Assembly (NCBI GenBank): GCA_009787085.1
Contig: WRGR01000040.1
Span: forward strand, 1 to 64,000
Length of the DNA: 64,000 nt
Origin: Actinomycetes bacterium
GTDB lineage: Bacteria > Actinomycetota > Coriobacteriia > Coriobacteriales > UBA8131
Reading direction: 5' to 3'
Part shown: one piece after another, positions 22,158 to 52,293 of the stretch
Position numbering within the stretch: the first letter of the stretch is position 1
How the letters are laid out: each line of letters opens with the position of its first letter
The notes under the pieces: model-generated
Database searches by the model: none
What the model saw: only the letters and a program-made list of their open reading frames with translations
What the model was told of the DNA's origin: nothing
Translations under genes and position numbers: made by a program

Positions 22158-22287
22158 TTTGGGGGAAGCGCCGATAAATGCAAAACCCCAATCCCGCACG
22201 GCTACCGCGCCACAACCTTTCACCCTGCTGATCAAGGGAAAGATTGCGGCGCGGGAGCCACAATGACTGGAATTTGGGCATTAAACC
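22158..22287. repeat. Dispersed palindromic element family A, copy 1
   Basis: The core CAACCTTTCACCCTGCTGAT...AAGATTG at 22213-22246 aligns with cores at 39023-39056 and 58944-58977. Weakly matching inverted ends (AATGCAAAACCCCAATCC and GGAATTTGGGCATT) flank it. It is intergenic between bioY and the flx/hdr operon. Confidence 0.6.
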
Positions 22288-22323
22288 GGCGCTGTCCTAG
22301 GATAACATTCCTCGGACAGCGCC
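22288..22323. terminator. Hairpin downstream of the hdr-flx operon
   Basis: GGCGCTGTCC and GGACAGCGCC form a perfect 10-bp stem with a 16-base loop, 38 bp past the flxA stop on the minus strand. There is no strong T-run, so termination is plausible but not certain. Confidence 0.5.
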
Positions 22324-30176: not shown

Positions 30177-30809
30177 GTGAGCGTATTCGAAGATATTTCA
30201 TTGTTCGTCCAGCAGGGAAAGGCAAAGGATGCTGTAGCGGCAGTCCAGAAGGCTATTGACGCTGGTGAGGCACCGCAGAAGATCCTGGACGACGGCCTGT
30301 TGGCCGGTATGGCAGTTATTGGCGAGAAGTTCAAGAACAACGAGGTATTCGTACCTGAGGTTATGATCGCCGCCAAGGCCCTGACCGGTGGCGTCGACCT
30401 GCTTAAGCCCCAACTGCTCAAGGCCGGCGTGGAGCCGATCGGCAAGGCCGTCATCTGCACGGTCGAAGGTGACCTGCATGACATCGGCAAGAATCTTGTC
30501 AAGCTGATGATGGAGGGTGTTGGCTTTGAGGTGACCGACCTTGGTGCTGACGTCACAGCAGCCCAAGTTGTGGATGCCGTCAAGAAGAACGATGCCAAGA
30601 TCGTTGCCCTGTCTGCCATGTTGACCACCACTATGGCCCAGATGGGCAAAGTCGTGGATGCCTTGGCTGCAGCCGGCCTGCGCGACAAAGTTAAGGTTAT
30701 GGTGGGCGGTACCCCGATCACCGATAAGTATTGTGCGGACATCGGTGCTGACAAGTACGCTGTCGATGCTGCCTCTGCTGCCGAAGCTGCCCAAGCGTTG
30801 GTGAAATAG
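30177..30809 (+). CDS. Corrinoid (B12-binding) methyltransferase protein, MtaC/MtbC type
   Basis: A 210-residue protein starting at GTG with GGAAGGGAG six bases upstream. The N-terminal four-helix cap (about 1-85) includes KILDDGLLAGMAVIGEKF. The C-terminal B12-binding Rossmann domain carries EGDLHDIGKNLVKLMM, where about H101 is the cobalt ligand. LSAMLTTTMAQM and VMVGGTPITDKYC complete the fold. It accepts a methyl group from a substrate-specific methyltransferase and donates it to tetrahydrofolate via a second enzyme. It is one of three paralogues here and followed by a strong terminator, so it is probably a single-gene unit. Confidence 0.92.
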   Translation: MSVFEDISLFVQQGKAKDAVAAVQKAIDAGEAPQKILDDGLLAGMAVIGEKFKNNEVFVPEVMIAAKALTGGVDLLKPQLLKAGVEPIGKAVICTVEGDLHDIGKNLVKLMMEGVGFEVTDLGADVTAAQVVDAVKKNDAKIVALSAMLTTTMAQMGKVVDALAAAGLRDKVKVMVGGTPITDKYCADIGADKYAVDAASAAEAAQALVK

Positions 30810-32836: not shown

Positions 32837-34629
32837 AACAGGACACATCTTTTTTGACCGGCTCGACTGATGCCTCTAGCTCAGGTGCGCAGGTCAACCT
32901 GACGATCAACGGCATCGCCGTTTCTGCGTATCGGAACATGACGATTCTGGCTGCGGCCAACAAGGCCGGCATCAAAATACCCACCCTCTGTTTTTTTTGG
33001 AACCTTAACGACATCGGCTCCTGCCGGGTCTGTGCAGTCGAGGTGGATGGCTTTGAACAGTTGGTCTCAGCCTGCAACAACTTGGTGCAAGACGGCATGG
33101 TAATCCAGACCAACAGCGCCAAGGCCCGTCAGGCTCGGCGGCTGAACGTGGAGCTTTTGCTCTCCCAGCATGATGTCCAGTGCAGCAGCTGTGTGCGTGG
33201 CGGCAACTGCGAGCTGCGCCAGCTGGCCAACGACCTGAACATCATCGATGTGCGTTTCGAGAAGCAAACCGAGTCCTTCGACTGGCCAGAGGACTACCCG
33301 CTGATCCGCGAGGCTAGCAAATGTATCAAGTGTCTGCGTTGTATTCAGATATGCGACAATATTCAAGCCAGCCATATTTGGGACCTGCGAAACCGTGCCA
33401 CCCGCTCTTCGGTAGGCGTTAGGGATGCCACCCCGATCAAGTCCTCGCTTTGCGCAGTCTGTGGCCAGTGCATCAACCATTGCCCGGTCGGCGCCCTACG
33501 CGAGCGTGACGACACTGATCGTGTTTTGGCCGCCATAAACGACCCGGAGAAGATTACCGTTGTTCAGGTTGCGCCCTCTGTGCGCACCTCTTGGTACGAG
33601 GATTTCGGCCTGACCTTTGATGCGGCCAAGCCCCAACGCCTAGTCGCTGCGCTGCGCCAAGTCGGCTTCAACTACATCTTCGACACCGACTTCTCTGCTG
33701 ACCTGACTATCATGGAGGAAGGCAGCGAGCTTTTGGCGCGCGTCGGCGCGGCCGATAAACACCCTTGGCCGATGTTCACATCCTGCTGCCCGGGCTGGGT
33801 CCGCTGGCTGAAGGGGCATCACCCAGAAATGATCGACAACCTGTCCACGGCCAAGTCACCACAACAGATGTTTGGAGCGGTGACTAAGAGCTACTATGCC
33901 GACGTCTTAGGCGTTGATCCGAAGCGCATCTTCTCTGTCTCGATCATGCCCTGCCTGGCCAAGAAGCATGAGTGCGCCATCCCCAACATGAACGATGCCT
34001 GCGGCGACCCTGATGTCGATATCGCACTGACCGTGCGGGAGATGAACCGGTTGATCCGCTCGACTTTCATTGACGTTCCCGGCTTGGTGGATGAGGAGTT
34101 TGACTCGCCGCTAGGCATTGGCACCGGTGCCGGCGAGATATTCGGTGCCACCGGCGGTGTTATGGAGGCGGCGTTGCGTAGCGCTTACTTCTTAGCCACC
34201 GGCTCCAACCCCGACCCGGATGCCTTTGCCGATGTTCGTGGTTTACAGGGCTGGAAAGAAGCCACCTTCGACCTGAACGGTGCCCCAGTACGGGTGGCCA
34301 TCGCGTCTGGCCTAGGCAATGCCGAGAAGCTGATCGCTGCCATCAAAGCCGGCGAGGTGCACTACGACTTCGTGGAGATCATGGCTTGTCCGGGCGGCTG
34401 CATCGCCGGCGGCGGCCAGCCGATTCCTGGCAAGCTGAACTTCCGCACGACACGTAGCAACGTGCTCTATGGCCTAGACCAGCAAAACCAATACCGCTTC
34501 TCACACGAAAACCCCTCGATCACCAAGGTCTACAGCGAATACTTCGGGGCACCGCTCTCTGAACGGTCCCACCATTTGCTGCACACCAACCATCGCCTTT
34601 GGAGCATGCCCAATGAAGATGAGCAGTAG
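32830..34629 (+). CDS. hydA: [FeFe] hydrogenase catalytic subunit HydA
   Basis: The start is ATG 32830 at the end of the previous gene, giving 599 residues. An N-terminal 2Fe-2S domain (CFFWNLNDIGSCRVC) is followed by a His-Cys cluster motif (HDVQCSSCVRGGNC). A pair of 4Fe-4S clusters comes next (CIKCLRCIQIC and CAVCGQCINHCPVGAL). The H-cluster domain has all three signatures: FTSCCPGWVRWL, SIMPCLAKKHECAIP and EIMACPGGCIAGGGQP. It is thus expected to be active. It makes or uses H2 with ferredoxin and probably NAD(P)H via the upstream partner. No maturases HydEFG are in the window. Confidence 0.95.
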   Translation: MVKQDTSFLTGSTDASSSGAQVNLTINGIAVSAYRNMTILAAANKAGIKIPTLCFFWNLNDIGSCRVCAVEVDGFEQLVSACNNLVQDGMVIQTNSAKARQARRLNVELLLSQHDVQCSSCVRGGNCELRQLANDLNIIDVRFEKQTESFDWPEDYPLIREASKCIKCLRCIQICDNIQASHIWDLRNRATRSSVGVRDATPIKSSLCAVCGQCINHCPVGALRERDDTDRVLAAINDPEKITVVQVAPSVRTSWYEDFGLTFDAAKPQRLVAALRQVGFNYIFDTDFSADLTIMEEGSELLARVGAADKHPWPMFTSCCPGWVRWLKGHHPEMIDNLSTAKSPQQMFGAVTKSYYADVLGVDPKRIFSVSIMPCLAKKHECAIPNMNDACGDPDVDIALTVREMNRLIRSTFIDVPGLVDEEFDSPLGIGTGAGEIFGATGGVMEAALRSAYFLATGSNPDPDAFADVRGLQGWKEATFDLNGAPVRVAIASGLGNAEKLIAAIKAGEVHYDFVEIMACPGGCIAGGGQPIPGKLNFRTTRSNVLYGLDQQNQYRFSHENPSITKVYSEYFGAPLSERSHHLLHTNHRLWSMPNEDEQ

Positions 34630-35689
34630 CCAGCGCTTCCTCCCCCTTTTGCTGTTCGTTGCCCTTGTTGGCTTGATTTTGTTCGGCATGGTTGGCTGTC
34701 AAGGTGTCCCAACCGCTGAGCAGTCAGGCGGCCCGGGCGGTAACGCAAATGACGCAGGAGGAACTACCACACAGCCGATTACCGTGCATGTTGCCTCTTT
34801 GAAGGGGCCGACATCGATCGGTTTGGTATCTTTCATTGACAAAGCCAAAAACAACCCCGGCAGCTTGACTAACAGCTACGACTTCACGGTCTTCGGTACC
34901 GGTGGCACGGCCGACACAGTCGATGCCATCCTCGCCGGGCTGGTCAGCAACAGCACCGACATCGCCTTGGTACCCGCCAATTTGGCCGCGACGCTCTATA
35001 ACCAGGAGGGTGTTGATATCCAAGTACTGGATATCAACACCCTCGGAGTGCTGCATGTGGTGTCGGCCGACGCTTCTGTCAACTCCTTGGCCGATCTCGC
35101 CGGCCGTACCGTGCTAACGACTGGCAAAGGCGCTACACCGGAATACGTTCTGAGCACCCTGCTGGCTGCGAATGGCGTTCAGAACGTCAACCTAGAGTTC
35201 AAGAGCGAGGCCACTGAGTTGGCGGCGGCACTGGTTTCTGACCCGACGGCCATCGCAGTGCTGCCTGAACCCTACGTGACCGCTGTGACATCCCAAGACC
35301 CCAGCCTTACGCCCCGCATCGACCTGACCGATGCCTGGAACAACTCGATGGCCGACGGCAGCCAACTGGTAACCAGCGTAACCATCGTGCGCAGCGGCTT
35401 TGCCGCTGAGCACCCCCAAGCAGTTCAGGAGTTCTTGGAGCAACAGCGGCTTTCTGTAGACAGCGTCAACGCTGATCCTGCAGCTGCTGCCCAGCTGGTA
35501 GTGGCTAGCGGCATTATTGAGAAGGCAGCGGTTGCCGAGCTGGCCATACCCCGCTGCAACTTGGTCTGCGTCACCGGTGCAGATGCCAAGACTTACTTGA
35601 ACGGTTATTTGGCCGCCCTATTCGCCCAAAACCCGGCTTCAGTAGGTGGCAAGCTCCCGGCTGACGACTTCTACTATCCAAGCAACTAA
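34613..35689 (+). CDS. ABC transporter substrate-binding lipoprotein, NMT1/SsuA family
   Basis: A 358-residue lipoprotein whose start overlaps the end of hydA by 17 bp. The signal helix (FLPLLLFVALVGLILFGMVGC) ends in a lipobox Cys at about 29. The mature part has the SsuA-like pattern KGPTSIGLVSFIDKAKN, VHVVSADAS/LADLAGRTVLT (seen as LADLAGRTVLTTGKGATPEY) and ALVSDPTAIAVLPEPYVTA. Such proteins bind nitrate, sulfonates, thiamine precursors or similar small molecules; the ligand is not evident. Coupling to hydA suggests a cofactor or substrate linked to the hydrogenase or methyl pathway. Confidence 0.83.
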   Translation: MKMSSSQRFLPLLLFVALVGLILFGMVGCQGVPTAEQSGGPGGNANDAGGTTTQPITVHVASLKGPTSIGLVSFIDKAKNNPGSLTNSYDFTVFGTGGTADTVDAILAGLVSNSTDIALVPANLAATLYNQEGVDIQVLDINTLGVLHVVSADASVNSLADLAGRTVLTTGKGATPEYVLSTLLAANGVQNVNLEFKSEATELAAALVSDPTAIAVLPEPYVTAVTSQDPSLTPRIDLTDAWNNSMADGSQLVTSVTIVRSGFAAEHPQAVQEFLEQQRLSVDSVNADPAAAAQLVVASGIIEKAAVAELAIPRCNLVCVTGADAKTYLNGYLAALFAQNPASVGGKLPADDFYYPSN

Positions 35690-35954
35690 GAAATCGTCGA
35701 TCTAATGATGTTACGCCAGATTGTGAACAGAACTGCTCCAAGGTCGTTCGGGCAAACGGCACCACTATTGGCGGTAAGGGTAACGTTTGCCCGGGCAGGC
35801 ATGGGGCGGCCCAGCTTGCAATCTGGCGTGGCATGATTTGCACCATGCCGCCGTCCGGAGGCAGCACAAACGGGACACGGAAAGTCAGTGCCATTTTCAG
35901 GCTTAACCACTGTCCCCTTGAGTGTACCGGCGGGCATTCGGACTTCTGCGCCGC
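35690..35954. other. Gap between binding protein and fused transporter
   Basis: No gene is supported. The gap holds an inverted copy of repeat family B near 35815-35844. This insertion separates the binding-protein gene from its presumed transporter partner. Confidence 0.5.
35815..35844 (-). repeat. Dispersed repeat family B, copy 3 (inverted)
   Basis: CTTGCAATCTGGCGTGGCAT and following bases are the reverse complement of the GGTGCAAATCATGCCACGC pattern seen at about 29788. Confidence 0.55.
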
Positions 35955-37397
35955 ATGCTGAGGGTGCTGAAAAAACTGGCCATTGTGCTCGTCTGGCTGC
36001 TGATTTGGCAGCTGGCGAGCGCTTTGGTTGCTAAGCCGATACTGCTTTGCTCACCGCTGGACGTTTTTTGGACGCTGCTGAGCAGTTTGTTCGCCCTTGG
36101 ATTTTGGTCATCCATCGCCTATACCATGGGACGGATTTGCCTTGGCTTCTTCAGCGCCTTTTTTCTCGGCATGGTGCTGGGTGCGCTAAGTTGGCGCTTC
36201 AGGCTTTTTGCCGAGTTCTTCAACCCGGCCATGCTCTGCATCAAAAGCGTTCCGATCGTCTGCTTCGTCGTTTTACTGCTGATCTGGTTCGGATCAGCCT
36301 TTGTTAGTGCCATCGCCGTGTTCTTGGTGGTTCTTCCAGCCGTCTATTTCCCGATGGCCGAAGGGCTGCGTTCCCACGACAAGAAGCTGCTGGCGATGCT
36401 GAGAGTCTTCCGGGTACCCATCGGCCGTCAAGCACTGAGCCATTATTGGTCGGCCATCGCGCCCTTCATCACCGCCAGCAGCCGTATCACTGTCGGCCTA
36501 AGCTGGAAGTCCGGTGTTGCCGCCGAGCTGATCGGCCTACCCTTAAACAGCATCGGTGAGGGCATCTACCAGTCCAAAATCACACTCTCATCTGCAGACC
36601 TCTTTGCTTGGACGATCGTCATCATCGCCGCCGCCTTGGCCTCTGAGAAGGTATTCCTATTTCTCCTAAAACAGGCCGATGACTGGCTTTGGCGACTGGC
36701 CATGCCTCGCTTTCACAGCAAAACTGATTCCAAAAACATGGCCAAAAACAGCACATCTGGCTCCGCTGAGCCAGAGGCAGTCGTGGTCCAGGGTTTGGAT
36801 AAGTGCTTTGGGGATAACATCGTGCTAAAAAACTTCAATGTCACCCTCCAGCCCGGTAGTCGCTACCTTTTGATGGGCAGCTCCGGCAAAGGCAAGACTA
36901 CCTTGCTGATGCTTCTAGCCGGAGTTATCCTTCCCGACCACGGCTCGATCAGCACCACCACCCGGACATCCGTAGTCTTTCAGGAAGCACGGCTGTTCGA
37001 GTCCCGCAGTGCTGTGGAGAACATCCAGCTGGTGGCCGGCAAATATCTTTCCGCATCAGCGATCCGGGAAATGCTGTCCCGTGTCCTCCCTGACGCCTCC
37101 TTGGACATCGAGGTCTGCCAACTCTCTGGTGGCATGCGGCGGCGGGTCGAGCTTTGTCGGGCGCTGGCCATGCCCGCCGACCTTTTGCTGCTAGATGAGC
37201 CATTCGCCGGATTAGACGCCGCCAGCAAGGCCATCTCCTGCCGCCTGTTGCTGGACTCTTTAGGGCAGCGTACCTTGGTTCTCAGCAGCCACAACCGGGA
37301 AGAGGCCGGGGTGCTCTCGGCCTTGATCCTCAAATTGCCAGATAACGTCGGACAGATGCCGACTGTCGAACACTGGCCGACGGATACCGGCCAGTAA
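35955..37397 (+). CDS. Fused ABC permease-ATPase (SsuC-SsuB type)
   Basis: A single chain of about 480 residues combines both membrane and motor parts of an SsuBC/NitT/TauT-type importer. The permease half (about 1-245) has six helices and the coupling segment EGLRSHDKKLLAMLRVFRVP. A Ser/Lys linker leads to the ATPase half with Walker A GSSGKGKTTLLML, signature QLSGGMRRRVELCRAL, Walker B LLLLDEPFAGLD and a SSHNREE switch. The ATPase is short (about 200 residues). Start choice is uncertain: ATG 35955 is used, and GTG 35922 is the track alternative; neither has a strong ribosome site. Its partner is the lipoprotein encoded upstream. Confidence 0.82.
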   Translation: MLRVLKKLAIVLVWLLIWQLASALVAKPILLCSPLDVFWTLLSSLFALGFWSSIAYTMGRICLGFFSAFFLGMVLGALSWRFRLFAEFFNPAMLCIKSVPIVCFVVLLLIWFGSAFVSAIAVFLVVLPAVYFPMAEGLRSHDKKLLAMLRVFRVPIGRQALSHYWSAIAPFITASSRITVGLSWKSGVAAELIGLPLNSIGEGIYQSKITLSSADLFAWTIVIIAAALASEKVFLFLLKQADDWLWRLAMPRFHSKTDSKNMAKNSTSGSAEPEAVVVQGLDKCFGDNIVLKNFNVTLQPGSRYLLMGSSGKGKTTLLMLLAGVILPDHGSISTTTRTSVVFQEARLFESRSAVENIQLVAGKYLSASAIREMLSRVLPDASLDIEVCQLSGGMRRRVELCRALAMPADLLLLDEPFAGLDAASKAISCRLLLDSLGQRTLVLSSHNREEAGVLSALILKLPDNVGQMPTVEHWPTDTGQ

Positions 37398-37597: not shown

Positions 37598-38296
37598 ATG
37601 CCAAAGAACCCTTTGCTTGAACAACTTTCCGACAAAGTGCAACTTGGACGCATCAAGGATGTCGTTGAACTCATCCATAGATGCCTTGATCAGGGGATAA
37701 GCGCCCAGAGCATCTTGGACGACGGCTTGCTGCACGGCCTCGATGAGCTGAGCGTCCGCTTCCGAAACAGCGAGATATTTATTGCCGAGCTGCTGCAGGC
37801 CTCCAAGGCCATGAAGGTCGGCTTGGCCGTAATCAAAGACCAGCTCGCCTTGCAAAACGTCAGGCTCCATGGCAAGGCGATCATTGCCACCGTTGAAGGC
37901 GACTTGCACGACTTGGGAAAGTCCCTGGTCAAGCTGATGTTAGAGGGTACAGGCATGGATGTTGTCGACCTCGGGGCAGATGTTTCTGCAGAGCGGATTG
38001 TCAAGACAGTCGCTGAACTTAAACCGGACATCTTAGCCCTCTCTTCCCTGCTGACAACCACTATGGAAAACCAACGCAAGGTGATGGAAGCGTTGAAGTC
38101 AACCGGACTCCGGGACAAGGTGAAAGTGATCGTCGGCGGTGCCCCGATCACCATGGGCTACTGCCACAGCATTGAGGCCGATGGCTATGCCGAGAATGCG
38201 GCCGGCGCAGTGGAGCTGGTACGAAACCTCCTTCCTAGAAACGTGCCGATCAATGCTGTTGCGCCAGCCTACAAGCAGAGTTATCCCAAAGGCTGA
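37598..38296 (+). CDS. Corrinoid methyltransferase protein, second paralogue
   Basis: The start is ATG 37598; the track frame begins 13 codons earlier with no site. The product has about 232 residues. The helical cap has SILDDGLLHGLDELSVRF. The B12 domain has VEGDLHDLGKSLVKLMLEG with cobalt ligand about H104, followed by LSSLLTTTMENQ and VIVGGAPITMGYC. It differs clearly from the first paralogue, so each may serve a different methyltransferase. It heads a cluster with two CobW-type GTPases and a His-rich protein, 40 bp before the first GTPase. Confidence 0.92.
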   Translation: MPKNPLLEQLSDKVQLGRIKDVVELIHRCLDQGISAQSILDDGLLHGLDELSVRFRNSEIFIAELLQASKAMKVGLAVIKDQLALQNVRLHGKAIIATVEGDLHDLGKSLVKLMLEGTGMDVVDLGADVSAERIVKTVAELKPDILALSSLLTTTMENQRKVMEALKSTGLRDKVKVIVGGAPITMGYCHSIEADGYAENAAGAVELVRNLLPRNVPINAVAPAYKQSYPKG

Positions 38297-38336
38297 TAAG
38301 GGCAGTGGCAATGAGTATTTGGAGGTATTTTAGAAC

Positions 38337-38972
38337 ATGATGCGGATTATTCTTCTTAGTGGCTTCTTGGGCTCTGGTAAAACTACGCTGCTGGCTCAGT
38401 TAGCCGGATACCTAGGCCAGACAACGGTCACCGACGACCCGAGCGGCCAGAGAAGCGCCCGGGTGGCGCTGATCGAAAACGAGGTCGGATCAAAGAGCCT
38501 GAGCAGTGAATTGCCCCGCTGTGAGGGCATCACCAGCAAAGAGATGCTCTCCAGCTGCATCACCTGTGCGCTTCGGGACAACTTGGCATTGGCCATCACC
38601 CATAGCGCCAAGACAGAAAGCCCGGACTGGCTGTTGATCGAAACCCCCGAGCTGGCCAGCGCCAAGGAAGTAGCTGCCGACATCCGCTCTACCGTCGACA
38701 GAAAGCTCTTCTCCTCGATCAGCTCGATCGTCGTTCAGGATGCCAGCCGCTTGGCGATGTTCATGGAGAAGTCCGAGCGTCTGGTTGGCCGCCAACTAGA
38801 ACAAGTGGATGTGCTGATCTTGAACAAAGTCGATAAGGTGAGCCAAGCGGAGCTGGCCGGTTGCCTGGCCATCCTAGAAAAGATTAGACCTGACACCACG
38901 CCAATCGCCCTCAGTGCCGAAAGCGGCGTTTCCGGCGATACTTGGCAACAGGTTGTTTCGGTGCTCCCCTAG
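38337..38972 (+). CDS. CobW/COG0523-family GTPase, diverged copy
   Basis: A 211-residue P-loop GTPase with Walker A LLSGFLGSGKTTLLAQL, the ENEVG stretch and an NKVD specificity motif (LILNKVDKV). The metal-binding loop that is CxCC in the family reads SSCITCALRDNL here, so one Cys of the motif is lost. The family's C-terminal domain is missing; the protein is only the GTPase core. These proteins deliver metals such as zinc or cobalt to enzymes. It is 40 bp downstream of a corrinoid gene, and its paralogue follows. Confidence 0.83.
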   Translation: MMRIILLSGFLGSGKTTLLAQLAGYLGQTTVTDDPSGQRSARVALIENEVGSKSLSSELPRCEGITSKEMLSSCITCALRDNLALAITHSAKTESPDWLLIETPELASAKEVAADIRSTVDRKLFSSISSIVVQDASRLAMFMEKSERLVGRQLEQVDVLILNKVDKVSQAELAGCLAILEKIRPDTTPIALSAESGVSGDTWQQVVSVLP

Positions 38973-38979
38973 GGAAGTA

Positions 38980-39098
38980 CCGGTTTAACGCCCAAACCCG
39001 GCCCCATACGGCTTTCGAGCCGCAATCTTTCACCCTGTTTATTAGGGTAAAGATTGCGGGTCGGGGTCGCATGGGATCGGGTTTGGGCGTTAAACCGG
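38980..39098. repeat. Dispersed palindromic element family A, copy 2, with 21-bp perfect terminal inverted repeats
   Basis: CCGGTTTAACGCCCAAACCC and one more base at the left end are the exact reverse complement of the right end (39078-39098). Inside lies the conserved core at 39023-39056. The 119-bp element fills the gap between the two GTPase genes. The design is that of a MITE or a large RNA hairpin. Confidence 0.75.
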
Positions 39099-39179
39099 GC
39101 CTAAATCGGTGCTTCCCTAGCTCACGAACATGCACTATCATAGGAATCCAGTAATAAGCGGCAGCACCGGAGGTTGTTA

Positions 39180-39821
39180 ATGCGAATTATTCTTCTCAGC
39201 GGATTTCTCGGGTCAGGCAAGACCACGCTTTTGATACAGCTAATCGACTACTTGAGCCGACAGACATTTAAAGACGACTCAGGCGGTGAGAGAGCTGCCA
39301 GAATCGCCATTATCGAAAACGAGATCGGCTCGATAAACTTGGACAGCAAAATGCTCAGCGGCAAGGGTTTTGCCATGCGGGAGATGCTCTCTGGTTGCAT
39401 TTGCTGCTCGCTCCAAGACAACTTGGCAATAGAGATTACCAAGATTACCGAGACCATCGACCCGGACTGGCTGGTGATCGAGGCCACCGGGCTGGCCAGC
39501 GCCAGAGAAGTGACAGCCGGCTTGAAGTCTGCCATAGACGATAGGTACTACGATGGCGACATCCACTCTATCGTTTTGGTGGATGCCAGCCGCCTACCGA
39601 TGCTTCTGGAGAAGACCAAGACCATGGTTTCCCGGCAGCTGGAAAGGGTGGATGTCTTGGTCTTAAACAAGATCGACTTGGTATCTGATGAAGAGAAGTC
39701 CAACTGCTACGAGCGCTTACGCGAAATCAAGCCAGATACCCGCATGGTTGAGATGTCCGCAGAAAAAGATGTTGCCGACGATACTTGGCAGCAGGTCGTT
39801 ACCGACCCGAAGGCAGGGTGA
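39180..39821 (+). CDS. CobW/COG0523-family GTPase with intact CxCC motif
   Basis: The start is ATG 39180 with CCGGAGG seven bases upstream, giving 213 residues. It has Walker A LLSGFLGSGKTTLLIQL, IENEIGSINLD, the intact metal-binding loop SGCICCSLQDNL, LVIEATGLASAREV and NKIDLV. It also lacks the usual C-terminal domain, which may be replaced by the separate His-rich protein encoded 5 bp downstream. The metal is not defined by sequence; cobalt or zinc are sensible because corrinoid proteins and zinc-dependent methyltransferases are encoded nearby. Confidence 0.86.
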   Translation: MRIILLSGFLGSGKTTLLIQLIDYLSRQTFKDDSGGERAARIAIIENEIGSINLDSKMLSGKGFAMREMLSGCICCSLQDNLAIEITKITETIDPDWLVIEATGLASAREVTAGLKSAIDDRYYDGDIHSIVLVDASRLPMLLEKTKTMVSRQLERVDVLVLNKIDLVSDEEKSNCYERLREIKPDTRMVEMSAEKDVADDTWQQVVTDPKAG

Positions 39822-39826
39822 GCAGC

Positions 39827-40447
39827 ATGCTTGAACAGCACCAACACGACACCTGTGGCCATGGACATGATGGCCGTGGCTCAACACACCCCCATGACCA
39901 CGATCACGACTGCGAGCACGGGCACAGCCATAGCCACCCCCACGCCCATGACGACCATGAGCACCATGCCGCCCACGGGCAAGAAGTACACGTTCACCAA
40001 CATGGCCATGACCACGATCCGAGCTCTGCTCATGGCCATTCCCACGACCATAATTCCGACTGCCACGCCAATCTGCCAGAGGTCGAAGAGACAGACGGCT
40101 GGAGCATCAGCCTAATGGAGCACGAGGAAGCACTGGTTGCTTCGCTGACTATCGAACTTTCAGGTAATATTGATTCACTTGAAAGTTTAATTGCAGCATC
40201 ATTGGAACGTCTAGTACACCAACTGAAAGACCAAGGCGCACTGATTGGCCATATAAAAGCCGCTTTGACATGTATAACTCCAGTTATGACCTTTGCCAGC
40301 GTTGGCGACAACCTAAACACCAAGGCACATCAGCCAATATCCTATAAGCTTGAAGCTTCATCGATAGTTTTTAATATCGATAAAATGTCCCTAAGAACCC
40401 TCGTCCGAAATTTGGCAACCCATCTGGGCACCCCGCTGTCAAGCTGA
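39827..40447 (+). CDS. His-rich putative metal-binding partner of the CobW GTPases
   Basis: The start is ATG 39827, giving 206 residues. The first 85 residues contain several dozen His plus many Asp/Glu (HGHSHSHPHAHDDHEHH is one stretch), an obvious metal store. The C-terminal 120 residues have no His run and form an alpha/beta domain (SISLMEHEEALVASLTIEL, VMTFASVGDNLNTKAH) that I do not recognise; it could correspond to the detached CobW C-terminal domain. The 5-bp spacing from the GTPase gene implies joint function in metal delivery. Confidence 0.72.
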   Translation: MLEQHQHDTCGHGHDGRGSTHPHDHDHDCEHGHSHSHPHAHDDHEHHAAHGQEVHVHQHGHDHDPSSAHGHSHDHNSDCHANLPEVEETDGWSISLMEHEEALVASLTIELSGNIDSLESLIAASLERLVHQLKDQGALIGHIKAALTCITPVMTFASVGDNLNTKAHQPISYKLEASSIVFNIDKMSLRTLVRNLATHLGTPLSS

Positions 40448-40678: not shown

Positions 40679-42307
40679 ATGTCAAATCGCTTTAGAGAGG
40701 CTTTGGAGTCTGGTGAGTTCGTCGTCACTTGCGAACTCATACCCGGCAGAGGCGCCAACGAACCCGGTCAGATCAAGGAATATGACGCAGCCGTTGCCAT
40801 CTACAACACTGGCAAGGTACATGCCATCTCCATTACTGACAACCCCGGCGGCAACCCCGCAATTGCAGCCGACACCTTTGCCGATGACCTTGAGAAGCAA
40901 GGGATCCCAACACTGGTGCACTTCACCTGCAAAGACAAGAGCCGCAATCAAATGCAGGCCCAGCTTTACGGCATGGAGCGCCGGGGGCTGCAAAACGTAC
41001 TGGTGATGACCGGCGACTATGTCTACTCCGGCTGGAACGGCCGCTCACGCCCGGTCTTTGACCTTGATCCGGTCCAAGCTGTCGGCCTAGTCAACGACAT
41101 GAACAAGGGCCTGATAGTCCCCGGCCCCAAGGGCAACAGCCAAGAGCAGCCCGCCCACTTCTATCCGGGCGCCTGCGTCAGCCCCTTCAAATGGACAGAG
41201 GCCGAAACCATCACTCAGTACCTGAAAATGGAAAAGAAGATCATGGCCGGAGCCAACTTTATCATCTCGCAGCTTGGCTATGATGCCCGCAAGATGGAAG
41301 AGCTGCTGCTTTATGTCAAAGAAAAAGGCTACGATGTGCCGATGATCGCCAATATCTACATCATCTCTGCTGGCACCGCCAAGTTCATGAAGGGTGGCAA
41401 CATCCCCGGCGGCTATATGAGCGACGAGTTCTTGAGCATCCTGGTCGAAGAAGCCAAGGCCGAGGACAAGGGCAAGGCCGCACGCCTACTGCGGGCAGCC
41501 AAGATGGTGGCCATCGCCCGCGGCATGGGCTATGACGGTGTGCACATCGGCGGCATGGGCCTGACAGCCGATATTTTCAACACCATCCTGAATACCGCCG
41601 ATCAAATCCAAGACCAGTGGCGCCAATGGGCAGATGAGATCCATTACGGTCAACCCGATGGCTTCTACCTCTACAAGCCAGCAGTCGATGTCAACGGCAA
41701 AAAGACCGGCCTGAACACCACGGAACGGGCACCTCTTACGGAGGGCTACCAAGACAAACCGAAGCTAATGAAGTCTTACGGCCTGTCGCGCTTCTTCCAT
41801 CACTGGGTGCTAACCCGTGACAAGCGCTTCTACGGCACCTTACGCAACACGATGGAGCGCAAGGAGAAGAAAAAAGGCATGCACCGCCATCACGGTATGG
41901 AACACATGGGCAAGGTCGTGCTCTATGGCTGTCTGGATTGCGGCGATTGCGGCTTGGAAACCACCATCTATACCTGCCCGATGACCCAGTGCCCGAAATG
42001 CCAGCGCAACGGACCTTGCGGCGGCAGCGCCGACGGCTATTGCGAGGTCTACCCGAAGGACAAGCCGAACTGGCGTTACTGCATCCACGTCAAAGCCTAC
42101 CATCGCCTCAAGAAATACGGCGAGCTGGAGAAGATCGACTCCTATATCACGCCCCCTAACAACTGGGATTTCTTCGAGACTTCCGGTTGGAGCAACTATA
42201 CGCACGAAAGGGACAATGCCGCTCATCGGCAGTACCTACCCACACCGGAGCTGCGGCCAGGAGCCGCTAGAGACAGAAGAACCGGAAAAGACACTGACAG
42301 TAAGTAG
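40679..42307 (+). CDS. metF: Methylenetetrahydrofolate reductase, MetF-MetV fusion
   Basis: The start is ATG 40679 with TTGGAG seven bases upstream; the first 58 track codons cross the terminator. The product has 542 residues. Residues 1-300 are the MetF TIM barrel (FVVTCELIPGRG, VLVMTGDY, ANFIISQLGYDARKMEEL). Residues 400-500 match MetV, the zinc/iron-sulfur subunit, with Cys motifs LYGCLDCGDCGLE, CPMTQCPKCQRNGPCGGS and YCIHVKAYHRLKKYGE. In acetogens these are usually separate MetF and MetV. It interconverts methylene- and methyl-THF, and the Hdr-Flx complex is a possible electron partner. Confidence 0.92.
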   Translation: MSNRFREALESGEFVVTCELIPGRGANEPGQIKEYDAAVAIYNTGKVHAISITDNPGGNPAIAADTFADDLEKQGIPTLVHFTCKDKSRNQMQAQLYGMERRGLQNVLVMTGDYVYSGWNGRSRPVFDLDPVQAVGLVNDMNKGLIVPGPKGNSQEQPAHFYPGACVSPFKWTEAETITQYLKMEKKIMAGANFIISQLGYDARKMEELLLYVKEKGYDVPMIANIYIISAGTAKFMKGGNIPGGYMSDEFLSILVEEAKAEDKGKAARLLRAAKMVAIARGMGYDGVHIGGMGLTADIFNTILNTADQIQDQWRQWADEIHYGQPDGFYLYKPAVDVNGKKTGLNTTERAPLTEGYQDKPKLMKSYGLSRFFHHWVLTRDKRFYGTLRNTMERKEKKKGMHRHHGMEHMGKVVLYGCLDCGDCGLETTIYTCPMTQCPKCQRNGPCGGSADGYCEVYPKDKPNWRYCIHVKAYHRLKKYGELEKIDSYITPPNNWDFFETSGWSNYTHERDNAAHRQYLPTPELRPGAARDRRTGKDTDSK

Positions 42308-42338: not shown

Positions 42339-43139
42339 ATGATCATTATTGGCGAAAAAATCAACGGTTTCATCAAGAGGACAATGGAGGCCATCGAGGC
42401 CAAGGACGAGGCTTACATTAAAGAGCTGGCAGTAAAGCAGACAGCGGGCGGCGCTGACTACATCGACGTTTGCGCTGGCACCATGCCAGACGTTGAGCGG
42501 GACACCATGGAGTGGCTGATGAACTTGGTCCAGGATGCCGTGGATACCCCCCTGAGCGTCGACAGCTCTGACCCCCAGGTGATCGTGGACATGCTGCCGC
42601 TGGCCAAAAAGCCCGGCCTGGTCAACTCGATCTCCAAAGAGGCCGGCAAGACCGAACTGGTGTTCCCGGCCATCGAAGGCACGGAGTGGAAAGTTGTTGC
42701 TTTGACCTGTAACAATGAGGGTATCCCGAACGATGCCGAAACCAAGTTTGAGATCGGCAAGCAGATCATCGAGGAAGCTGCCAGCTATGGCATCGGCCTT
42801 GACCGCATCTTCATCGACCCCTGCGTCACCACCTTGGCCACCACCCAGGACTGCCTGATCAGCTTCATTGGCGCTATGCGTCTGCTGCGCGAGGCTTATC
42901 CGGGTGTGCAGTTCACATCCGGCCTGTCCAACATCTCCTTCGGTATGCCTTACCGCAAGGCCATCAACATGCAGTTCCTAGCCTTGGCATTGTACGAAGG
43001 CATGGACAGCGCCATCATCGATCCGATGTCTGCCGATATGCAAGCCGTCCTGCACTCCGTGGAGGCACTGCTGGGCAAGGATGACTATTGCATGAACTAC
43101 CTGTCAGCCTTCCGCGAGGGACTGTTCGGTGCCAAATAG
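42339..43139 (+). CDS. Methyl-THF:corrinoid methyltransferase (AcsE/MtgA/MtvA family)
   Basis: A 266-residue pterin-binding TIM barrel with AAGGAGA upstream of the ATG. It starts MIIIGEKINGFIKRT, as in this family, and has GGADYIDVCAGT, PLSVDSSDPQVI, IFIDPCVTTLAT and TSGLSNISFGMPYRK. The last motif is typical of methyltetrahydrofolate methyltransferases. It moves methyl groups between the corrinoid proteins and tetrahydrofolate. It is 31 bp after metF and likely in the same transcript. Confidence 0.92.
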   Translation: MIIIGEKINGFIKRTMEAIEAKDEAYIKELAVKQTAGGADYIDVCAGTMPDVERDTMEWLMNLVQDAVDTPLSVDSSDPQVIVDMLPLAKKPGLVNSISKEAGKTELVFPAIEGTEWKVVALTCNNEGIPNDAETKFEIGKQIIEEAASYGIGLDRIFIDPCVTTLATTQDCLISFIGAMRLLREAYPGVQFTSGLSNISFGMPYRKAINMQFLALALYEGMDSAIIDPMSADMQAVLHSVEALLGKDDYCMNYLSAFREGLFGAK

Positions 43140-48464: not shown

Positions 48465-49868
48465 ATGGGAAGACAGAACGTAACAAATGTTGCTTATACG
48501 GATCTTAAAGATTTCGTATACGGCAAAGCAGTTCACCCCGTTACGACGAAGCGGGGACTCGTAATCGGTGGGGGCACCATCATGCCTGAGGTGAACTTTA
48601 CCCTGCCTACAATGCTTGTCGAGAAAGACACGATGCCGGAAGTGCTCGATATCTACAGAGAGATCGCTGATGGTATCTGCCAGCGTGCCGTGGAGATCGA
48701 AGTTCCTGGTGTCCAGCTAGAGTGCGAGTGGGTGCCTCAGACTACTTTTGAGCCTGAGTGGGGCATTCAGCACATGGAAGTCATCGAAGAGGTCTGTGAG
48801 TCCTACTTCCAGAAGTATGGCCTGAAAGTGGCCGTTCGTTCCACCCCGGTCGATGTTCGCGAGGTCGGCTCCCATGAGGGTCTGGAGCACATGTGGCATG
48901 GCAAACTGTGGGACAAGGTCGTCCGCTCCATGGAGGGAAGCGCCGCAGCCGGCAATGACTTCCTGTCCATCGAGTCCATCGGCGGCAAGGATGTTCACGA
49001 CGAAGGTCTGCTTTTCAACGACATCTCCAAGATCATCTTCGGTCTCGGCGTCCTCGGCGCTCGCGACATGGAGAAGCTCTGGGGCATGATTGTTGACGTT
49101 GCCGCAAAGCACAAGGGCACTGTCGCTGCTGGCGATACTGCTTGCGGTTTTGCTAACACTGCTATGGTTCTGGCTGAGCAGAACTACATCCCGCGCGTCC
49201 TCGGCGCCACCGCTCGCGTCGCCGCCGCTGCTCGCTCCATGATCGCCATGGAGATGGGTGCTGTCGGCCCAGACAAGGACTGCGGCTATGAGGGTGTCAT
49301 CGTCAAGGCCATGACCGGTAAGCCGATCACCATGGAAGGCCATGTGGCTTGCGTTGCCCACCTTTCCCGCGTTGGTAACATTGCTATCTGCTGCGCTGAC
49401 CTGTGGAGCAACGAGTCCATCCAGCACATCAAGCTGCTCGGTGGCTTTGGTGAGGTCGTTGGCCTGGAGCAACTGGCCTATGACTGCCGTTTGCTGAATG
49501 GTGCCCGTGCGAAGAGTGAAGACACTGCTCTCTTGCTGCGCGACCTTTATGCCGATAGCGATAGCTATCTGGATCCGCATGCCTACATCCTGCGCCCGGA
49601 CGTTGCGCTGGAGATCGCCAAGGGCATCGTCGCCGAGAAGCCCAATGACTTCCTGCGCGTCAAGAAGGCCTGCGAGATGGCTGTCAAGGTCATGCTTGAT
49701 GGTTACAATAGCAAGAAGCTTCGCCTCTCCGATCAGGAGCTCGGCTACCTGAACAAGCTCGGCGAGGACATTGCCGCAATCACCAACGATGAAGGTGCCT
49801 TCATCGAGCAGCAGCTTGCTGAGAACGCGGACAATCCGAAGTTCAAGAAAGAGCTGTACGACCTGTAA
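48465..49868 (+). CDS. mtaB: Methanol:corrinoid methyltransferase MtaB
   Basis: A 467-residue protein of full family length. Typical MtaB stretches are present: GGGTIMPEVNFTLPTM near the N-terminus, FLSIESIGGKDVHDE, AAGDTACGFANTAMVLAEQ and GPDKDCGYEGVIVKAMTGKP. By comparison with the Methanosarcina enzyme (Glu164, Cys220, Cys269), the zinc ligands should be about E170, C227 and C273, all present. It activates methanol and methylates a corrinoid protein (MtaC type). No corrinoid gene is adjacent, so it must use one of the three encoded at 30.2, 37.6 or 63.3 kb. Its C-ending codons suggest high expression. Confidence 0.93.
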   Translation: MGRQNVTNVAYTDLKDFVYGKAVHPVTTKRGLVIGGGTIMPEVNFTLPTMLVEKDTMPEVLDIYREIADGICQRAVEIEVPGVQLECEWVPQTTFEPEWGIQHMEVIEEVCESYFQKYGLKVAVRSTPVDVREVGSHEGLEHMWHGKLWDKVVRSMEGSAAAGNDFLSIESIGGKDVHDEGLLFNDISKIIFGLGVLGARDMEKLWGMIVDVAAKHKGTVAAGDTACGFANTAMVLAEQNYIPRVLGATARVAAAARSMIAMEMGAVGPDKDCGYEGVIVKAMTGKPITMEGHVACVAHLSRVGNIAICCADLWSNESIQHIKLLGGFGEVVGLEQLAYDCRLLNGARAKSEDTALLLRDLYADSDSYLDPHAYILRPDVALEIAKGIVAEKPNDFLRVKKACEMAVKVMLDGYNSKKLRLSDQELGYLNKLGEDIAAITNDEGAFIEQQLAENADNPKFKKELYDL

Positions 49869-50076: not shown

Positions 50077-50715
50077 TCATAAATACAGCAGCATACCGAA
50101 AAAGGTCACCGTATTCTGACCAGCGCTATAGTTCATACCCAGTTGCTTGGACAACACAGTGACATTGATTCCACAAGCTTCTAGAGGAATAAAGAAATTC
50201 TCAGGATGCACACAGGGATGCCCCGGATAAGTACACTGAGCACAACTATTGCAGGAGTCCGAACCGAAAACCCGGTAAGGCTGGTTGATGTCTATCTGAG
50301 CCAAGGCAGTATCTTGGTTATGAACGACAATTCTGGCCACGTTCGCTTCTCCCGCCATTGCCTCCTGGCCATCTTCGACCAATAACTGCCGACAGTAGTC
50401 GTTGATTCTCATCAATTTGTCAAAAAGGCGGTGGCCAGCAGCCATCATTCCTTCAAAGTCAAAAGAGTCCTCAATATCGGAAACCTCATTGAAGATGGTT
50501 CCCTTACTAAAAGACTTGCAAAGGCCGATGAGGTCCTCGAAGTCTCCGACACCTGGCGGACAGTTCCACGTCTTAGCAAAACGCCCACAGGTGTTATAGT
50601 CACACATGTGGCGCATGTCATAACTGAAATCGAGTATATCGGTCTGAAAATGTCGGACTTGTGACAATCCGAGGCTTTCAACGAATGCTTCTATCTGGCT
50701 TTTGGTATCAGCCAT
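50077..50715 (-). CDS. DUF2284-type metal-binding protein
   Basis: About 212 residues from ATG 50715. Cys-rich motifs are visible: CDYNTCGRFAKTWNCPPGVG near residue 40 and SDSCNSCAQCTYPGHPCVHP near 155. Both are characteristic of DUF2284, a family of predicted iron-sulfur or metal-binding proteins without known function. It lies 60 bp downstream of the corrinoid activator on the same strand, and such genes often accompany methyltransferase clusters, so a role in corrinoid maintenance is plausible but unproven. Confidence 0.8.
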   Translation of the reverse strand: MADTKSQIEAFVESLGLSQVRHFQTDILDFSYDMRHMCDYNTCGRFAKTWNCPPGVGDFEDLIGLCKSFSKGTIFNEVSDIEDSFDFEGMMAAGHRLFDKLMRINDYCRQLLVEDGQEAMAGEANVARIVVHNQDTALAQIDINQPYRVFGSDSCNSCAQCTYPGHPCVHPENFFIPLEACGINVTVLSKQLGMNYSAGQNTVTFFGMLLYL

Positions 50716-50775
50716 GCACCACACCCTGTCTCCAGCCTCGGATCGTCTTGTTGTTATGTTGCCGTAAGCCGGTGA

Positions 50776-52293
50776 CTAGACCTCGAAGGACATATTGTCC
50801 ATGAACTGGTCGTTGAACATCGGGTGAGCCGCCAGATCGATCTCCTGGCCGCCCTTTGCCACCTCGGCAAGGCCGGCGCGAGCACTCTCGTTTAGGCAAA
50901 GCTTCACTGCCCCACTCAAGGAACTGTTGCCGATAGCCTGAACACGGCCTTCAAAGCTATGCGGCAGCATCCCGGTAATCAGGGCACTCTGGGGGTTGAG
51001 GTTTTGCCCGAAGCCACCTGCCAAGAATATCTTCTTGGGAATATCGCCGCCCATCACCGCCATGATGATCTCCAAGCCTGTTCTGGTAGCACTTTTGGCC
51101 AATTGGAACTGTCTCAGGTCGCGCTGATTGAAGTACACCTCACCGCTGCCCTCAAGCTCAGGATTCTTGGCCAACACCACTCGGCTGTCCTCAATATCAT
51201 CGTTCATCAGGCCAGTCTCGTCGATCATCTTCTCCCGCACCAGCACGGCCATCAAATCGAGAATACCGGAGCCGCAAATGCTGACAGGAGGGGCAGCACC
51301 GATTGTCTGCAAGTCCCAAGTGCCACCTGCGAATTTGACCACTGAAACCGCGCCACGAGTGCTGCCGGAACCACATTCGATGTTACCGCCTTCAAAGGCC
51401 GGTCCAGCAGCAGTTGATGTGCAGATAACCTTGTCGCCACGCTTGAAAATCATCTCGCCGTTGGTACCCATGTCCATCAGGATGAAATCGTCCTCGGCAC
51501 CAAGTGAAACCAGACCGGCGGTCAAATCGCCGCCAACATAGGCAGAGATGAATGGCACCACGGTACACTCGCAGCTCAAGGTATCCGTCTTGAAGATATC
51601 CTGGTAAGGAGTGTCAATTGCGTAATCATAAGCTGGTGTAAAGGGCACGAAACCAAGCGAGCGACAAGGCAGACCCAAGAGAATATAAGTCATGGTGGTA
51701 TTGCCAGCGATGACCACCCTCTTGACCTGCCCGGCATCGATGCCGCTGTCCTTGACCATGTTGCTGATTGCCTTGTCGATCTGTTTGGTAATCAAAGCCG
51801 AAAGCTCTGATGAGTCATCAAGCGAGCAATTGATGCGGGAAACCACGTCAGCACCATACGGCAACTGTTCATTGAGCGAAGCAAAGGATGCCAGCTCAGT
51901 GCCGGTTTCGACCACCAAGAGCTTACCGACCACGGTAGTCGTACCGATATCGACCGCAATAGCTAAGTCGGAATTGCGAGCATCTTCAACTGCTGAGCGG
52001 TCAACCAGCTCATCAGCACTGGGGCCATCGAAGTCTACTTGGATAGCATAGCCGCTGTCGCTTTCTTGGCTAGGTATCAGGACCTCCATATCGTCCATAA
52101 CGTAAGTACGGCATGCCAAGCGCTTCTTGCCGTTCACGGTGACCCGGCATTTTCCGCAACGGCCAATGCCGCCGCAGTCGGCATGGATCGGAAACTCCTG
52201 TTCCCTGATTATCTCCAGCAAATTCTTGCCGACCTCGACTTCAATTTCCTTGTTCAACTCTGAAAAACTGACTGTTTTCTTCTCTTCAGCCAT
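50776..52293 (-). CDS. Corrinoid-activating ATPase, RACo type
   Basis: A 505-residue protein. The N-terminal 2Fe-2S ferredoxin domain has ADCGGIGRCGKCRVTV and a later Cys (RLACRTY). A linker leads to the ASKHA-fold ATPase domain starting LAIAVDIGTTTVVGKLLV, with VIAGNTTMTYILLGL, ILMDMGTNGEMIF and FLAGGFGQNLNP. RACo proteins use ATP to reduce cob(II)alamin that forms when corrinoid proteins are accidentally oxidised. It is shorter than acetogen RACo (about 630 residues) but has both key domains. It is divergent from no gene; the region upstream is the accessory island. Confidence 0.92.
   Translation of the reverse strand: MAEEKKTVSFSELNKEIEVEVGKNLLEIIREQEFPIHADCGGIGRCGKCRVTVNGKKRLACRTYVMDDMEVLIPSQESDSGYAIQVDFDGPSADELVDRSAVEDARNSDLAIAVDIGTTTVVGKLLVVETGTELASFASLNEQLPYGADVVSRINCSLDDSSELSALITKQIDKAISNMVKDSGIDAGQVKRVVIAGNTTMTYILLGLPCRSLGFVPFTPAYDYAIDTPYQDIFKTDTLSCECTVVPFISAYVGGDLTAGLVSLGAEDDFILMDMGTNGEMIFKRGDKVICTSTAAGPAFEGGNIECGSGSTRGAVSVVKFAGGTWDLQTIGAAPPVSICGSGILDLMAVLVREKMIDETGLMNDDIEDSRVVLAKNPELEGSGEVYFNQRDLRQFQLAKSATRTGLEIIMAVMGGDIPKKIFLAGGFGQNLNPQSALITGMLPHSFEGRVQAIGNSSLSGAVKLCLNESARAGLAEVAKGGQEIDLAAHPMFNDQFMDNMSFEV

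Follow-up and report, generated by a model that had tools for sequence, protein, structure and literature searches.

A core-only COG0523 GTPase and its GHxK-domain partner: a candidate split metallochaperone in the neighbourhood of corrinoid methyltransferase genes

The clients of COG0523 GTPases are largely unknown. Fifteen subfamilies have been distinguished, of which subfamily 13 co-localises with mtaA, mtaB, mtaC and ramM in methanogens; clustering with methyltransferase genes was likewise noted in Clostridium botulinum and Desulfitobacterium hafniense, and zinc was suggested as the metal in view of the zinc dependence of MtaA and MtaB (Haas et al., 2009; PMC2770081). Here we analyse a related gene cluster at positions 37,598 to 40,447 of a 64,000-nucleotide stretch of DNA from an Actinomycetes bacterium of the Coriobacteriia (contig WRGR01000040.1; the whole stretch is called the window; the genome comprises 1.83 Mb in 46 contigs). 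A corrinoid protein gene is followed by the genes of two COG0523 GTPases, A and B, and of a histidine-rich partner protein. The original prediction, made from the DNA letters, had read these four closely spaced genes as a candidate metal-delivery module for methyltransferases. Order and spacing are as described, with all open reading frames (ORFs) on the + strand. The conserved unit, however, consists of the last two genes only, i.e., the intact core GTPase B and the partner.

Several described systems resemble this pair. The GTPase motifs are shared with Escherichia coli YjiA and YeiR, which are single chains with a canonical C-terminal domain bearing RxKG; the module instead has a separate protein with a GHxK motif which Pfam does not recognise, and a natural fusion aligns to YjiA over both domains. 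CobW, the cobalt chaperone of aerobic B12 synthesis, is a CxCC GTPase like that of the module, yet it possesses extra cysteines (PMC7895991) which the module lacks. UreG/UreE and HypB, the nickel GTPases, also combine a core-size GTPase with a separate His-rich helper; the module differs by its CxCC, by an unrelated partner and by neighbours among which no nickel enzymes were seen. The CobW-related selenoprotein NF041053 (UxxC; listed in PMC13188914) is core-only and about 195 amino acids (aa) long, like the module GTPases, and with this model core-only CobW proteins have already been recognised as such. NF041053 is the best NCBIfam match of both window GTPases, which score far below its curated cut-off (91.8 and 66.6 bits vs. 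180) and carry Cys where the selenoprotein has selenocysteine.

The corrinoid methyltransferase neighbourhood of subfamily 13 is found at the module loci and in the window. The split and the partner gene are features of the module, and neither is mentioned in the available part of the 2009 paper (PMC2770081). Methanosarcina acetivorans has a PF02492 match and no PF07683 match; this is compatible with split members there and is not proof, as PF02492 also covers HypB. The association of COG0523 with corrinoid methyltransferases is known since 2009, and to this extent the earlier statement that no such module had been described does not hold. The split form and the partner gene were not found described in the literature searched, outside of which lies the main later COG0523 review; split architecture and partner family appear undescribed.

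A conserved gene pair beside methyltransferase genes

When relatives were searched with the C-terminal domain of the His-rich protein, the partner domain was detected in 11 other genomes, and at those loci with enough upstream sequence the neighbouring gene encodes a core-only GTPase. When 397 genomes of its phylum, the Actinomycetota, were searched with a profile, the partner came up in 7 others, every time right after a core-only GTPase. A GTPase-profile scan of a named genome collection, from which 80 loci were kept (GTPase-first set), extends the pair to Coriobacteriia, Clostridia (Clostridium ragsdalei, C. carboxidivorans, C. magnum, C. drakei, C. luticellarii), Acetobacterium, Sporobacter termitidis, Ca. 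Formimonas warabiya, Deltaproteobacteria, Holophagaceae, Victivallales, Chloroflexi and Thermoleophilia. In 74 of the 80 loci the partner gene comes immediately after that of the GTPase. Four of the six remaining loci stop at a contig end (L028, L033, L041, L063), and in three of them the partner has already begun; in L045 an assembly gap interrupts the GTPase and no partner is present. L029 (9836-11089) also encodes a core-only GTPase of this subfamily, and the gene right after it is that of GTP cyclohydrolase I (FolE) in the partner's place. A partner-first set, assembled with no selection on the GTPase, came from the phylum to which C. magnum belongs (399 genomes searched, 24 positive) and from 15 chosen genomes; a core-only GTPase is adjacent or fused in 54 of the 55 loci inspected. 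Some genomes contain 2-4 module copies. A plasmid search with the GTPase gave one distant match. Conservation across several phyla excludes a chance explanation, and because the pair was recovered in both search directions one can conclude that it is real.

The original prediction had staked itself on a neighbourhood conserved outside this genome, and such conservation exists: it is kept in the relatives L007, L008 and L027, including the position of a fused MetF-MetV type methylenetetrahydrofolate reductase (MTHFR) gene after the cluster. A corrinoid gene occupies the equivalent position in L008, L027 and L028. A cluster of four genes that includes two GTPases was seen in the window only; what recurs elsewhere, in corrinoid methyltransferase operons of anaerobes including acetogens, is the pair, and GTPase A looks degenerate.

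For module linkage to METHYLTRANSFERASES the genes scored within 5 kb were those of corrinoid proteins, pterin-binding methyltransferases, UroD-family methyltransferases, RACo and DUF1638. Such a gene is present at 44 of the 80 GTPase-first loci, UroD-family methyltransferases being the commonest neighbours (33/80) and corrinoid proteins the next (22/80). Beside the pair there are 0.32 scored genes per kb; 5-9 kb away their density has dropped to about 0.01-0.07 per kb. Among partner-first Bacillota 26 of 29 loci have scored genes within 5 kb vs. 2 of 20 control stretches (Fisher p = 1.8e-8); the controls are arbitrary stretches from seven of the same genomes, which are shared with the modules, so that the test is not fully independent, and the effect is large. 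Many Bacillota modules have two corrinoid protein genes per locus plus RACo. RACo occurs in 12 of 13 partner-positive vs. 20 of 48 partner-negative genomes (61 relatives, p = 0.0013 with phylogeny ignored and the weak partner match G059 taken as negative); inside the window's own family the association has no significance. MtaB is in the neighbourhood of L233 (Acetobacterium paludosum). MtaB is a much rarer neighbour of the module than UroD-family methyltransferases or corrinoid proteins, and the more specific proposal that zinc is loaded into MtaB remains conjecture.

A DUF1638 gene often comes right before that of the GTPase, and right after the partner comes one of DUF2284, whose annotation reads predicted metal-binding protein (e.g., L034:9087-9845, L047:10971-11537). 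Both families, uncharacterised to date, recur in methyltransferase operons with the module.

Architecture of the partner and the GTPases

The partner of the window has 33 His in 206 aa, 28 of which reside within the first 88 residues, and the 'dozens' of the original prediction were a fair description. The His tract, however, does not define the protein. His content ranges from 2 to 119 residues among partners, many of which have no His tract; thus, the tract is accessory and dispensable. As an extreme, a 475-aa partner from a metagenome-assembled genome of a deltaproteobacterium carries 119 His ahead of its GHxK domain (L038:10488-11912). The defining element is this domain of about 110 residues with the motif GH[IVL]K, in which G, H and K are invariant in 73 domains. 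The AlphaFold2 model of the window domain (predicted local distance difference test, pLDDT, 91.8) proposes the order two strands, helix, four strands, helix. The window partner has no Pfam and no NCBIfam match, a PDB sequence search gave none either, and Pfam recognised CobW_C (PF07683) in 0 of 57 partners. The GHxK partner family is absent from Pfam and NCBIfam and previously unnamed. A relationship with archease was considered and dismissed: a single weak match below cut-off turned up in 1 of 57 partners.

Nature has joined both proteins in a single chain, in the order GTPase-partner, at L071 (Victivallales, 333 aa), L166 (C. drakei) and L171 (A. paludosum). The L071 fusion was modelled (pLDDT 83.9) from an alignment which combined this natural fusion with rows of the GTPase only and with three in-frame read-throughs. 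Foldseek retrieves YjiA as best match of this model over about 350 alignment columns which span both domains; HypB, UreG and MeaB are matched over about 205-218. On the grounds of the natural fusions and of this search the partner is very plausibly the functional equivalent of a COG0523 C-terminal half, encoded apart from its GTPase. The original prediction had assigned this replacement to the His-rich protein as such; it is the GHxK domain to which it would apply. CobW_C was the best of 11 profiles compared with the partner, in the expected register (GHIK on RxKG, AIVF on LVFIG). The partner is probably a very divergent CobW_C, and homology appears likely as judged from profiles and models. 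The proteins at L166:751-1839 and L171:1399-2559 represent a second, single-chain COG0523 type with SCFCC, and with ITNDQ replacing IENE; they end in a GHxK domain and Pfam CobW_C gives no match.

Both window GTPases match Pfam cobW and neither matches CobW_C, in agreement with the claim that the usual C-terminal domain is missing. P-loop, ENE switch and NKxD, which mark COG0523 members, are present in A and B according to Pfam and alignment. The metal motif had also been read correctly: GTPase B has CICC together with ExxG, whereas GTPase A has CITC and ExxE. GCxCC is present in 71 of 71 partner-linked GTPases (median length 201 aa). The nearest solved structure of GTPase B is E. coli YjiA. 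In a tree the split GTPases stand apart from 25 canonical COG0523 proteins of Actinomycetota (support 0.80). Another CobW-type GTPase match (73 bits) exists in the window's genome at G000:C46:17983-18450.

Among 96 module GTPases 24 positions are near-invariant, i.e., at least 95% conserved. GTPase B retains all 24. GTPase A deviates at four of them, D56S, G73S, C76T and G105E. These substitutions affect the switch/Mg region as well as the CxCC and ExxG motifs. In the tree GTPase A sits closest to GTPase B, and the relatives L008 and L027 carry a single GTPase, which argues for a local duplicate, degenerate or repurposed. GTPase A may have arisen by duplication in this lineage; with its metal and GTP motifs impaired, it is perhaps a non-catalytic partner or else a copy in decay. 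That it serves as a pseudo-GTPase subunit in a heterodimer with GTPase B, which would be compatible with a split metallochaperone, is possible and somewhat doubtful: the ORF is intact, P-loop and NKVD are retained and a good Shine-Dalgarno-like GGAGG precedes it, yet a cysteine of CxCC and the glycine of ExxG are among the four lost residues, L008 and L027 manage with one GTPase, and in L028 one is visible ahead of the contig end.

Gene content of the window

The genes of the window (Table 1) were named by ORF and by Pfam and NCBIfam scans; Fhs and FchA were named by inspecting the translations. For the corrinoid protein at the head of the cluster the NCBIfam models MtgC and pyl_corrinoid match below cut-off. 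Two additional corrinoid protein genes start at 30177 and 63311. The AcsE-type gene is followed on the + strand by Fhs, FchA and FolD. MtaB scores 430 bits with NF040651, under the cut-off of 720 of this model, and the RACo-type activator has PF14574 above cut-off at 50782-51483. The imperfect palindrome which separates GTPase genes A and B matches itself on the - strand, has about 45 partial matches across the genome at 71-89% identity and a further copy in the window at 22198-22289; it looks like a dispersed element of the MITE (miniature inverted-repeat transposable element) or REP (repetitive extragenic palindrome) type. Upstream of the cluster an ABC transporter with permease and ATPase in one ORF is located beside an SsuA/NMT1-like lipoprotein (35922-37397 and 34613-35689).

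Table 1. Features of the window in and downstream of the cluster.
Feature	Position	Strand	Basis
Corrinoid protein, MtgC/MtbC/MtaC-like, 232 aa, first cluster gene	37598..38296	+	Pfam B12-binding_2 and B12-binding
GTPase A, degenerate core-only COG0523 paralogue, CITC, 211 aa	38337..38972	+	Pfam cobW, 91 bits
146-bp imperfect palindrome between GTPase genes A and B, dispersed-repeat copy	38972..39117	+	Genome self-comparison
GTPase B, intact core-only COG0523/CobW GTPase, CICC / IENEIG / NKID, 213 aa	39180..39821	+	Pfam cobW, 133 bits
Partner protein, 206 aa; His-rich tract ~residues 1-85, GHxK domain ~residues 90-206	39827..40447	+	
Fused MetF-MetV type MTHFR, next gene, possible zinc client	40679..42307	+	Pfam MTHFR and DUF5981
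AcsE-type methyltetrahydrofolate:corrinoid methyltransferase	42339..43139	+	NF005719, 327 bits, above cut-off
MtaB, methanol:corrinoid methyltransferase (zinc enzyme), candidate client	48465..49868	+	Pfam MtaB, 531 bits
DUF2284 gene	50077-50724	-	
RACo/AcsV-type corrinoid reductive activator	50776..52293	-	NF040756 and TIGR04270, below cut-offs

Metal, clients and competing explanations

The metal acquired is cobalt in CobW and ultimately zinc in YeiR and YjiA; two extra cysteines are conserved in CobW and absent from YeiR and YjiA (Young et al., 2021; PMC7895991). The stretch that separates the ENE motif from CxCC contains no Cys in any of the 89 scorable module GTPases. The probable clients need zinc: MtaA and MtaB are zinc enzymes (Haas et al., 2009; PMC2770081) and MetV is a zinc/iron-sulfur protein (PMC8760232, PMC9430772). 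For these two reasons zinc is favoured over cobalt and is most likely the metal, as far as motifs and neighbours can tell. Neighbours of a zinc type lend support, i.e., the H-x-C-G motif in 27 of 46 UroD-family neighbours, FolE after the GTPase in L029, and MetV and MtaB in the window.

We consider it probable, by a moderate measure, that GTPase B and the His-rich protein constitute a split COG0523 metallochaperone which serves corrinoid methyltransferase systems, most likely with zinc. Several observations speak against this. The isolated GHxK domain has no Foldseek match in the PDB at E ≤ 0.001 and retrieves just generic small alpha/beta folds. The partner resembles the CobW_C profile weakly (E 0.0028 in hhalign, with a probability of 11%; controls 0.02-0.5). 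The L071 model superposes poorly on YjiA (template modelling score about 0.44, root-mean-square deviation about 20 Å), and the relative placement of the two domains in the modelled fusion would either differ from that in YjiA or be unreliable. H-x-D replaces H-x-C in 15 of 46 UroD-family neighbours. Finally, 36 of the 80 GTPase-first loci have no methyltransferase gene within 5 kb, which contig ends explain only in some cases. Amidohydrolase, metallophosphatase and GTP cyclohydrolase genes are among the neighbours at these 36 loci, and other metalloenzymes are therefore likely to be clients as well.

This last finding is what one would expect from a general zinc-homeostasis chaperone of the ZagA/ZigA/YeiR kind, which would be found in methyltransferase operons because these consume much zinc. 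The presence of other metalloenzymes among the neighbours and of multiple copies in some genomes points in the same direction. The strong adjacency to methyltransferase genes in the partner-first sample is difficult to reconcile with so general a role, and we regard it as clearly improbable. The split GTPase might alternatively deliver cobalt for corrinoid synthesis or, in the way MeaB acts on mutases, gate how the corrinoid cofactor is loaded onto the corrinoid protein. A corrinoid gene heads the window cluster, corrinoid genes are frequent neighbours, paired and accompanied by RACo in many Bacillota modules, and MeaB, a G3E relative, was retrieved by fold. All the same we rate it as fairly unlikely: UroD-family neighbours outnumber corrinoid genes, cobalt-binding CobW has extra cysteines which the module GTPases lack, the genes next to some loci are instead those of an amidohydrolase, a metallophosphatase or FolE, and no cobalamin-synthesis genes were seen among the neighbour families examined. 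Adenosylcobalamin mutases are absent from the neighbour families listed, no search having been aimed at mutases.

The His-rich tract and the Wood-Ljungdahl genes of the organism bring to mind a nickel chaperone that would serve carbon monoxide dehydrogenase/acetyl-CoA synthase (CODH/ACS) or hydrogenase and in which the partner would play the part of HypB or UreE, since nickel chaperones typically bear such tracts. Many partners have none, and urease, hydrogenase-maturation and CODH/ACS families are not seen among the neighbour families examined, in line with the original prediction, for which a link to nickel enzymes such as urease would have been damaging. This explanation is very improbable.

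For the split zinc metallochaperone the following sequence of events may be envisaged. The G domain with the CxCC metal site and the C-terminal domain would be encoded by two adjacent genes rather than one. The His tract of the partner, where present, would collect or buffer metal, and the ferredoxin-like GHxK domain would dock onto the GTPase and onto the client. GTP binding would form a high-affinity metal site at CxCC; GTP hydrolysis and client docking would then lead to metal release, the presumed direction of transfer being from the complex to the client. Candidate clients are corrinoid methyl-transfer proteins, i.e., MtaA/CmuA-like methyltransferases of the UroD family, MtaB, or the MetV part of MTHFR.

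We know of no dedicated metal-loading protein for corrinoid methyltransferases. The module provides a concrete set of GTPase, adaptor and client in culturable strains, such as Clostridium drakei, C. carboxidivorans and Acetobacterium, and the GHxK domain is a protein family which Pfam and NCBIfam are missing. With GTPase and partner available as separate proteins, simply mixing them could show what the enigmatic C-terminal domain of COG0523 proteins does. It is an evenly balanced proposition that the two-subunit COG0523 class is a dedicated metal-insertion step in the maturation of corrinoid methyltransferases across acetogenic and methyl-using anaerobes, in which the GHxK family would function as a client-specific adaptor.

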